Below are positions 23,789 to 25,563 of a DNA stretch of 64,000 nt, piece by piece (position 1 is the stretch's first letter; each line of letters opens with the position of its first letter). Source of the stretch: Coleofasciculaceae cyanobacterium (GTDB lineage: Bacteria; Cyanobacteriota; Cyanobacteriia; Cyanobacteriales; Xenococcaceae); the NCBI GenBank assembly GCA_036703275.1, contig DATNPK010000089.1, forward strand, positions 186,001-250,000. Direction: 5' to 3'. The notes under the pieces are model-generated. The model saw only the letters and a list, made by a program, of their open reading frames with translations. It was not told the DNA's origin and did not search any database. A program made the translations under genes and the position numbers.

Positions 23789-24336
23789 GCGTCCTAAAGG
23801 ACGACGCGAAGCTAGTCCTAAAGGATACCGCTTCGCATATGCTTTAGCATACCGCTCCGCATATTGTGGGGGTTCCCCCCATTGAGCCCTAAAGGACTAG
23901 CGGCGGTTTTTGGGACAGAATCTTCTGACCCAAAACGCGCCTTAGCTCCGCGTCGCAAACTGTCGAACCCGAAGGGCTAAGAGCTTATAAGATATATAGA
24001 TTGACAGTCCAATATTTTACCAAGCGTGGAGCGTAAAGCCGTGTGGCTTTAGCCCACGGATATAAGCAAGCAACAGATTTAGAAGCTGTTGAGTCAAATT
24101 TATTTGGCAGTCCTAAAGGATTAGAAGTTCGCGTCACGCGGAGCTATATGCGAAGCGGTATGCTAAAGCCCGTGCATGATTCACGGATAAACCGCACTCC
24201 GCCCTTCGGTCACATTTGCCCGTGCATGATTCACGGATAAACCGCACTCCGCCCTTCGGTCTCGAAGCTTATCCGTGATAGACTAGCCCTAAAGGATTAG
24301 CGCCTGGAGGCGCGTCCTTTAGGAGTCCTTTAGGGC
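23789..24336. repeat. Cluster of short palindromic interspersed repeats
   Basis: About 550 bases built from recurring blocks: TCCTAAAGGA and its variants, GACGCGAAGC, GCATATGCTTTAGCATACCGC, GGGGGTTCCCCCC, ACGCGGAGC and CCTTTAGGGCATATG. Many are palindromic or occur in both orientations. The same blocks recur at 25620, 37355, 42530, 46690 and 54921. Near 24039-24059 is a CCGTG...CACGG hairpin like the end hairpins of IS200/IS605 elements. A short open frame next to it (around 24043-24110, AHGYKQATDLEAVESNLFGSP) may be the relic of a gene. I see no intact gene in the block. Confidence 0.85.
24168..24261 (+). repeat. Two-copy direct repeat, 50-bp period
   Basis: The unit starting GCCCGTGCATGATTCACGG and running through ACCGCACTCCGCCCTTCGGTC occurs at 24168-24211 and again, identical by eye, at 24218-24261, separated by ACATTT. 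A copy in the opposite orientation lies at about 54966-55008. Confidence 0.9.
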
Positions 24337-24384
24337 ATATGAAATATTTATCGATACACTTTCGACCTCAAATCTTTATATATT

Positions 24385-24796
24385 AATGGCTAGAGCCATT
24401 GTAAAATAGAATTGTCTTCAGGTTGGGATGCCGTCGCACCGAAGTGAAAATTCTAGATGAAACAAGCTAGCACTTTTGAGGGGAAAATAGAGAGACAAGA
24501 GGTAGCGATAACTCTTTAAACAGCACAGTAACCGATTAAAGTCGGCGAATGAATTAGTCAACATAGCGTTGTAAACAGTAATTGGGAGTAATCCCCGTAA
24601 GGTAGGGCATACCTAAACTCTAGTTGCAATATACTAGTACGCTTGGAGAGCTATCCATGCATTGGACAACTAGATAGCAAGTGATATTCTAGTACGTTCG
24701 GATAGGACATAATCGTGTAAGACGTGATTAGATTTAGGTCGAAAGTGCAGTGATTAGCTCAAGAATCCCCGTTGTTTTTAACACGGCGAGTGTCAA
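24385..24796 (+). mobile_element. Internally deleted IS200/IS605-like element, no tnpA, tnpB reduced to its 3' end
   Basis: The left part has a perfect hairpin AATGGCT-AG-AGCCATT (24385-24400). It is followed by a short frame ending NCLQVGMPSHRSENSR and TGA at 24458, which reads like the C-terminus of a cyanobacterial TnpB. About 340 bases of untranslated sequence follow, ending in a hairpin CCGT(T)GTT/AACACGG and GAGTGTCAA at 24788-24796. GAATCCCC-hairpin-GAGTGTCAA is, from memory, the right-end form of one IS200/IS605 (TnpB) group in cyanobacteria. No transposase is encoded, so it would be a non-autonomous derivative. Its right end touches the gene starting at 24799. Confidence 0.55.
24461..24796 (+). 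ncRNA. Possible orphan TnpB guide-RNA (omega-RNA) scaffold
   Basis: In TnpB elements the RNA that guides the nuclease is made from the 3' end of tnpB through the right end; the guide is the flanking DNA just past it. Here that region is kept without the protein. It contains several possible helices: GGGAGTAATCCCC around 24584, AGTACG/CGTACT-like pairs around 24636 and 24691, and the terminal hairpin at 24769-24787. If transcribed, its guide would be the first bases of the following gene, AAATGGATACATACTC. Expression and any partner protein are unproven. The solitary tnpB at 47016 has a different right end. Confidence 0.4.
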
Positions 24797-24798
24797 AA

Positions 24799-25563
24799 AT
24801 GGATACATACTCTATTCTTAATCAAACCCAGCGTCAGCTTGTTAGTGACGGTGAAGTCAAGCCGATATTAGCAGATCTTACTGGCAAAACCTTAGTTTTA
24901 CTTTGGTCGCAGCTGGGAGACTTTGATAATTTAGAATATGCGTGGTGGCTCAAACGAGAGTCAGCAAAACTTGAAGCTAAAAAAATTGCGGTTAAAGCTG
25001 TGGGAATTGGCGATCGCAATTCGGGATTAAAATTCTGTGAATACACGGGTTTTCCCCCAGAGTGTTTGTCTGTCGATCCTACCGCCGAGATTCATCGACA
25101 ATTAGGGCTTTATCAGGGATTAACCAGCAAAATTCCGCTTTTATCTGCAAAATATAGTGCTTTTTTGAATTTAATGCTGATGTGTGCGGGTATTGGTAGT
25201 CCAGGAACGCTATCTGAGGTGTTTCGGGGTTACACAGGCGATCGCGCTGCGCCACAGTTGATTCAAAATGAAGAAATTATTAAAAATACTCCCCTGCCAA
25301 ATTTTAAAGGCTCGATATTTAAGCTGGCAGGCGGAGAAAACTTTCAACGTCCATTTGAACTTGCTACCCTCAGACTGCGAAACATGACGGAGGTGTTGAG
25401 TAACTGGAATACTTATGTTCCTGATGCGACTTATCTAACTCAGCGTGGCGGTACTTTTTTATTTAATGCTGATGGGAAATTACTTTATGAACATCGCGAT
25501 CGCCATATTCTCGGTTTTGCTGCTAACATGAGCAATCCCTTGTCATTTATCAATGAATATTAA
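24799..25563 (+). CDS. Peroxiredoxin-like (AhpC/TSA family 2) protein
   Basis: 254 aa, thioredoxin-fold protein. VKPILADLTGKTLVLLWSQLGDFDNLEYAWWLKRESAKLEAKKIAVKAVGIGD follows the AhpC-TSA_2 pattern. In this copy the usual CxxC after the second strand is absent (LWSQLGDFDNLEY). Cysteines occur later, at LKFCEYTGFPPEC, so peroxidase activity is doubtful. The second half (GGTFLFNADGKLLYEHRDRHILGFAAN) is the conserved C-terminal strand pair. ATG at 24799 is the natural start; the open frame upstream lies inside the right end of a mini-element. The native promoter therefore seems replaced, and the gene may be read from RNA initiated within the element. Confidence 0.8.
   Translation: MDTYSILNQTQRQLVSDGEVKPILADLTGKTLVLLWSQLGDFDNLEYAWWLKRESAKLEAKKIAVKAVGIGDRNSGLKFCEYTGFPPECLSVDPTAEIHRQLGLYQGLTSKIPLLSAKYSAFLNLMLMCAGIGSPGTLSEVFRGYTGDRAAPQLIQNEEIIKNTPLPNFKGSIFKLAGGENFQRPFELATLRLRNMTEVLSNWNTYVPDATYLTQRGGTFLFNADGKLLYEHRDRHILGFAANMSNPLSFINEY

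Follow-up and report, generated by a model that had tools for sequence, protein, structure and literature searches.

An IS200/IS605-type element upstream of a peroxiredoxin-like gene

The stretch of DNA analysed here (the window) comprises 64,000 nucleotides of the genome of a Coleofasciculaceae cyanobacterium (assembly GCA_036703275.1, contig DATNPK010000089.1, forward-strand positions 186,001 to 250,000). In it a gene for a peroxiredoxin-like protein is preceded by a compact unit with ends of the IS200/IS605 type, hereafter the mini element. The features of the unit and its flanks are the following.

24017..24020, + strand: TTAC target and predicted TAM in the left flank; TTAC also precedes the left ends of L130 and L003
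24021..24796, + strand: mini IS200/IS605-type element of about 776 bases without a transposase or tnpB gene (ends common to relatives; join at L092)
24021..24106, + strand: left end with subterminal hairpins (GGAGCGTAAAGCC..GGATATAAGC..CAAATTTATTTGGCAGT; alignment to L130 and L003)
24107..24335, no strand: repeat-rich stretch between the left end and the putative promoter (read in the sequence; partly common to L003)
24385..24400, + strand: hairpin AATGGCTAGAGCCATT upstream of the RNA (sequence and fold; several relatives have other hairpins there)
24764..24796, + strand: right-end hairpin and terminal GAGTGTCAA (sequence, relatives and alignment)
24797..24816, + strand: predicted guide, i.e., the right flank and start of the peroxiredoxin-like gene (from the general TnpB layout)
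24799..25563, + strand: peroxiredoxin-like gene (AhpC/TSA, PF13911; Pfam E = 4.8e-22)

Three loci served to delimit the unit: a tnpB element of the same genome (L130), a second copy of the mini element in this genome (L003), and the closest relative of the peroxiredoxin-like gene (L092, protein 92% identical), which is without the element at this locus. From position 24017 the window reads TTAC followed by CAAGCGTGGAGCGTAAAGCC..CACGGATATAAGC..CAAATTTATTTGGCAGT; the corresponding left end of L130 is TTAC followed by GGAAAAGGAGCGTAAAGCC..GGTGGATATAAGC..CAAATTTATTTGGCAGT, and that of L003 is TTAC followed by CTTAGTGGAGTGTAATGCC. When the left end of the window copy was aligned with that of L130, 64 of 83 bases were identical (score 98, against no more than 55 in 500 shuffles); with L003 it was 65 of 80. 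The window flanks, joined as 24021/24797 (after 24021, one base inside the element limit), aligned through the L092 site with a score of 163. The old target has diverged in L092, which has TTTTGCTC in place of the window's TTTTACC. Because the left ends match L130 and L003 and the flank join fits L092, we set the length of the unit at about 776 bases. The same left ends, together with the lower score of a cut at 24351 (126), led us to drop 24352 as a candidate left end.

An earlier note on this DNA, made from the sequence alone, had let the element begin at 24385. The comparisons with L130, L003 and L092 move this boundary to 24021, adjoining the TTAC at 24017-24020; the hairpin at 24385-24400 does exist, not as the outer end hairpin of the element, and sits just upstream of a -10-like box. 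The right end proposed in that note is real, with GAGTGTCAA at 24788-24796, two bases before the ATG at 24799. Its view that the element lacks a protein agrees with the list of open reading frames, in which 24021-24796 contains only a mechanical 65-codon frame (24043-24240) and no transposase or tnpB frame, so that the unit does not qualify as an autonomous IS605 element. Relatives of the mini element have right ends alike, mostly AGCTCAAGAATCC, a hairpin and GGAGTGTCAA, while the flanks beyond are unrelated. Behind some resident tnpB genes, where the note had proposed to look for such ends, the same kind of end (AAGAATCCC, hairpin, GGGAGTGTCAA) is found, e.g., at L116, L120 and L124. Subterminal hairpins lie at both ends of the mini element, both of them common to L130 (the right end via the covariance model), and a fixed short target flanks the left end: TTAC in the window, L130 and L003, and TTAT in all seven copies of genome G060 described below.

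The interval 24107-24335 is densely packed with short repeats, comprising CCTAAAGG-type palindromes and two direct copies of about 50 bases near 24170-24265, and similar repeats occur at 23790-23930 and in L003. In the window copy a right-end pair is broken and the left end is filled with repeats, so it may no longer move; with L003 (contig C108) truncated as well, both copies of this genome may be dying.

A predicted structured RNA behind a promoter-like box

The interior of the element holds the following features.

24400..24407, + strand: -10-like box TGTAAAAT (TTGTAAAAT at 24399-24407, 6 of 8 positions; box test on relatives)
24414..24796, + strand: omega-RNA-like structured RNA, its 5' limit estimated from the -10-like box (alignment and covariation of 24619-24796)
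24600..24614, + strand: core hairpin AGGT-AGGGCAT-ACCT, homologous to tnpB codons for (T)VGHT (mini elements and tnpB-type 3' ends)
24642..24763, + strand: closing helix CTTGG (24642-24646) / TCAAG (24759-24763) (pair tables)
24651-24656 / 24700-24705, + strand: covarying helix CTATCC/GGATAG inside the closing helix (pair tables)
24670-24674 / 24688-24692, + strand: helix CTAGA/TCTAG inside the closing helix (pair tables)

Judging by an alignment of 23 members, all of them TnpB-less copies, the 3' 177 nt of the mini element are part of a structured RNA family. The conserved, RNA-like stretch reaching 24796 that had been noticed earlier is thus borne out by relatives and alignment. In 12 of the 32 predicted pairs both sides change while the pair is kept. 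Overall, 98.0% of the cells pair compared to 89.3% in shuffles, none of 500 shuffles reaching 98.0%; this control does not preserve relatedness, and several rows of the alignment are close copies. When partners were slid by one column, pairing fell below 48%, in a control that favours the structure, which had itself been obtained from this alignment. The most clear-cut helix reads CTATCC/GGATAG in the window and TGAACC/GGTTCA, CCATCC/GGATGG and TAGTCC/GGACTA in other members. The window copy retains the modelled helices except for the one broken pair in the right-end stem, and its single-sequence fold was no better than that of shuffles (z = -0.33). At gathering thresholds, Rfam gave no match at the element in the window (one tRNA elsewhere) and none in 16 related loci; in a permissive scan of 24300-24900 the sole match, to Histone3 on the opposite strand (E = 4.4), is put down to chance.

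A -10-like box, matching TGnTATAAT at no fewer than 6 of 8 positions, precedes the RNA anchor by 13-23 nt in 26 of 32 copies. These copies are not independent, since close strains contributed several near-identical rows. Among mononucleotide shuffles of these stretches the rate was 12%. The test started from 37 rows, of which five without the anchor were left out, while four probably mis-anchored rows (L188, L236, L246 and L252) were kept among the 32 as misses.

Distribution and a second subfamily

DNA relatives of the mini element were detected in 20 of 100 kin genomes (E 0.001) and, across the order, in 79 of 388 genomes (E 1e-5; two candidates per genome scored). These counts and the element-free L092 show that the leader is not the conserved single-copy region that the earlier note had named as a refutation. 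A covariance model built from the 23-member alignment (R1) matched 8 of 146 genomes in a phylum-wide draw at E 1e-6, all eight in the same order, and a DNA search of plasmids for the mini element gave no match.

In the frames read around 36 mini loci, no tnpB frame runs into the RNA. A tblastn search of 15 TnpBs against 56 loci, i.e., those 36 and 20 loci scoring 45-80 bits, found TnpB only in L179, where it is separate and lies beyond the right end. L183 and L193 contain a TnpB in an IS607-type insertion inside the RNA, which in L183 was not picked up by this search. L180, L193 and L194 were considered as an autonomous, HEARO-like form with a gene inserted in the RNA; their reading suggested nested insertions. 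By eye, group II intron-like sequence lies upstream of and inside the mini RNA in L180/L194 and L193 (G299, G214), and the mini RNA of G214 also contains a nested IS607-type TnpA/TnpB element. Other mobile elements thus land in the mini element itself. About 300 bases before the right end of L187 there is a small palindromic insert (CATCTGAGGTTTCCTCAGATG), and related palindromes are present in L006, L170 and L189.

None of the 20 loci of 45-80 bits (type-B) contains a tnpB frame (reading and tblastn), and several of them have the left end TTATCGAAAATTTGGG or a near variant together with a 5' half of another kind. Among the aligned copies of the window's own type (type-A), too, the 5' halves are of two or more distinct kinds. 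Genome G060 carries seven copies (L256-L262) of this second TnpB-less subfamily, six of 72.9 bits and one of 71.3 bits; all seven lie at TTAT and have the same left end and seven different flanks. They would be a good system for excision tests.

The mini element might be a plain non-autonomous relic, MITE- or PATE-like, whose ends are moved by TnpA in trans and whose interior is a functionless fossil of the 3' end of a deleted tnpB. Ends-only IS605 elements are known (excerpt of PMC7290912), and the state of the two copies of this genome would fit, one being truncated and the other showing the broken right-end pair and repeat-filled left end. Selection on the RNA is nevertheless indicated by the pair-keeping double changes in 12 of 32 pairs across 23 members, by the conserved -10-like box and by the G060 copies, and even the window copy has kept its modelled helices save for that one pair. 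We therefore consider a relic unlikely.

The RNA is related to the 3' ends of resident tnpB genes

R1 was run on the window and on 37 loci of the same genome (28 TnpB and 9 TnpA matches). While the window scored 170.9 bits, the best resident loci were L130 (34.6 bits, E = 3.3e-7) and L119 (26.7 bits, E = 4.1e-5), which answers the objection, foreseen in the earlier note, that no likeness to tnpB right ends might exist. They were followed by L139 and L205 (20.8 bits, same place), L121 and L118 (20.1 and 19.8 bits, E 0.002-0.003), L124 and L120 (19.6 bits) and L116 (17.0 bits). Weak matches of 6.7-14.7 bits were obtained in L131/L204, L117, L123/L198, L127/L200, L133, L134 and L114, and at E 10 there was none in 13 of the 28 tnpB loci (L112, L113, L115, L122, L125, L126, L128, L129, L132 and L135-L138). 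Plain blastn of the mini element against the resident tnpB loci stayed at chance level (E 0.25 and 0.67); the link was revealed by the covariance model.

The matches in L130, L119, L121 and L118 span the last tnpB codons and the right end, a region that we take, from known TnpB biology, to be that of the omega-RNA. Where an alignment was shown, the remaining resident matches rest mainly on the right-end hairpin. The four tnpB ends follow the pattern GTAGGGCATAC...AACGCTTGGGGAG...CCAAGAATCC, hairpin, GGAGTGTCAA or close variants; in tnpB these bases encode '(T)VGHTG...NAWGE'-like tails, whereas the same bases are non-coding in the mini element. The last dozen codons of a tnpB frame had earlier been placed at 24412-24447, wrongly, as relatives do not keep that frame and the homologous stretch is 24600-24650. 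Of the earlier description, then, the TnpB-less IS200/IS605-type element with a guide-RNA-like right region stands, its omega-RNA idea being largely supported, while the tnpB codons at that place and the left boundary have to be given up. In L130 and further tnpB 3' ends the bases of the covarying core hairpin also encode the C-terminal tail of TnpB (VGHTG..NAWGE-like) and are thus constrained by both protein and RNA. Two matches at contig ends (G000:C16:13-138 and G000:C22:9593-9718) equal L130 in R1 score, which suggests further copies of the L130 element lost to assembly breaks.

Of the minis, all 22 of type-A and 13 of 15 of type-B have the core hairpin with its AGGGCAT-like loop, as do all 16 tnpB-type 3' ends, and across these groups it retains four pairs through differing letters. 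Since the script selects the candidate that pairs best within 420 bases, a single row may match by chance, but the position and the loop are consistent. Left out of the counts were L007, L012, L179 and L182 of 26 type-A rows (interrupted or truncated), L237, L238, L242, L251 and L255 of the 20 loci of 45-80 bits, and L269, L274, L275, L279, L280 and L281 of 18 matches of 30-40 bits. The 16 tnpB-type ends comprise four resident loci (L119 being a broken gene) and 12 from other genomes, seven of these with an open tnpB-type frame.

Among the 18 matches of 30-40 bits in other genomes, these seven open frames (L267, L268, L270, L271, L277, L278 and L283) end 15-39 nt before the right end. Five further loci carry tnpB remnants by reading (L272, L273, L274, L276 and L284), L269 and L282 are cut by contig ends, and L275, L279, L280 and L281 are without a tnpB frame. 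The TnpBs of L267, L268, L271, L277 and L283 are 49-77% identical to those of the resident L130, L118 and L121 (for L268 over only 120-140 residues), and that of L278 is about 31% identical to them.

Candidate partner proteins

The genome of the window contains 28 matches to the TnpB TNB domain and 14 Y1 TnpA matches, and the TnpB of L130 has the Pfam domains OrfB_IS605 and TNB. Relatives of this TnpB (E 1e-60) occurred in 39 of 41 genomes with type-A minis compared to 28 of 39 others (Fisher p = 0.006), a hint and not a test, since the genomes were chosen by hand and are related, and the others include type-B carriers such as G060. The mini element is present without a clade TnpB at E 1e-60 in G001 (81% complete) and G071, and many genomes without type-A minis have a clade TnpB. 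Between the strands of the closing helix the mini RNA has 112 nt and the resident tnpB genes have 59-61, and the same TnpB might therefore not accept the mini RNA. Among resident tnpA elements, the search for ends like those of the mini element yielded one RE-like end (L205) and no matching left end.

A structured RNA with another job, e.g., as a cofactor of TnpA or a regulator, could share only its ancestry with omega-RNA. This would account for a 5' half without counterpart in the tnpB 3' ends read, for an RNA longer than the tnpB-linked core, and for the two or more 5' halves among type-A copies. It fits poorly with a core hairpin, closing helix and right-end hairpin that are all common to tnpB 3' ends and with a clade TnpB that nearly always accompanies the mini element (39 of 41), and we regard it as distinctly unlikely.

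The peroxiredoxin-like gene was found in none of the 56 loci carrying the RNA family (tblastn, loci read). Conversely, 80 loci that contain a relative of the gene, a few of them with little upstream sequence, gave no match to the covariance model up to E 0.05; the single match up to E 0.1 was weak and lay inside the gene of L083. That the element is a domesticated promoter and leader kept for expression of the host gene is hence very improbable, even though it stops two bases before the ATG and its -10-like box points towards the gene, as the RNA family is not kept at this locus among the 80 gene relatives and the 56 RNA loci are without the gene.

A proposed omega-RNA used in trans

A protein-less unit of the IS200/IS605 type thus lies at the locus, with conserved ends, an RNA homologous to the omega-RNA region of tnpB and a promoter-like box. 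In TnpB systems the TAM lies to the left and the guide to the right, and the tnpB transcript is the usual source of the omega-RNA. That TnpB itself processes this mRNA to yield omega-RNA is reported in an excerpt of PMC10278001. We read the mini element as a TnpA- and TnpB-less IS200/IS605 element carrying an omega-RNA that is used in trans by a resident TnpB, with a probability of roughly two in three. The omega-RNA-like RNA would be transcribed from the -10-like box and read past the right end, whereby the right flank would become the guide; at this locus the guide would consist of the first codons of the peroxiredoxin-like gene. A resident TnpB of the L130/L118/L121 clade might load this RNA in trans. 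The complex would then cut copies of the locus without the element (TTAC then AAATGG), and repair would restore the element; the predicted target, TTAC followed by AAATGGATACATACTC, would be the empty locus. A resident Y1 TnpA would move the mini element, and readthrough may also supply the 5' leader of the peroxiredoxin-like gene.

Several known systems resemble the mini element in part. HEARO and IscB omega-RNAs are likewise guide RNAs of mobile elements; the mini RNA differs from them in having no Rfam match at gathering thresholds and in its guide, which would lie on the 3' side as it does for TnpB. Those IS200/IS605 elements that have TnpB and an omega-RNA share the subterminal hairpins, the TTAC/TTAT target, the right-end hairpin ending GTGTCAA and the homology of the 3' RNA core, whereas the mini element lacks tnpA and tnpB, has a -10-like box directly before the RNA and carries a longer RNA. 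PATEs, which are IS605 ends-only elements, are also protein-less, have IS605-type ends and are movable only in trans (excerpt of PMC7290912). In contrast to this description, the interior of the mini element is a conserved structured RNA, covarying in its 3' part, so that it is not an ends-only element. The RAGATH-18-derived reRNAs of IS607 TnpBs are structured RNAs behind tnpB as well (excerpt of PMC11061315); compared with what is described there, the mini RNA has no Rfam match and its element has ends of the IS200/IS605 type. In the titles and abstract starts of open-licence papers, a scope that makes an absence weak, we found none on TnpB-less elements with omega-RNA, and the excerpt of PMC11870625 contains nothing on elements of this kind; papers on OMEGA systems and the selfish spread of TnpB may mention orphan guides.

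More broadly, the order might hold a whole class of protein-less transposons whose cargo is only a promoter and a guide RNA, which would parasitise the TnpB of other IS elements in trans for a flank-guided defence of their sites. These would be mobile, natural single-guide RNA genes, old enough to have formed at least two structural subfamilies; we judge the chances for and against this wider view to be about even. TnpB is the presumed ancestor of Cas12. If our reading is right, a stand-alone guide-RNA family without a nuclease gene would be a natural case of the separation of guide and nuclease. The tracrRNA and crRNA have been proposed to stem from a split omega-RNA, and such a separation is the kind of step proposed between omega-RNA and CRISPR guides (excerpt of PMC10097598). 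The mini elements would also allow the sharing of one RNA-guided nuclease among selfish elements to be tested, and could give ready-made guides for cyanobacterial TnpBs.
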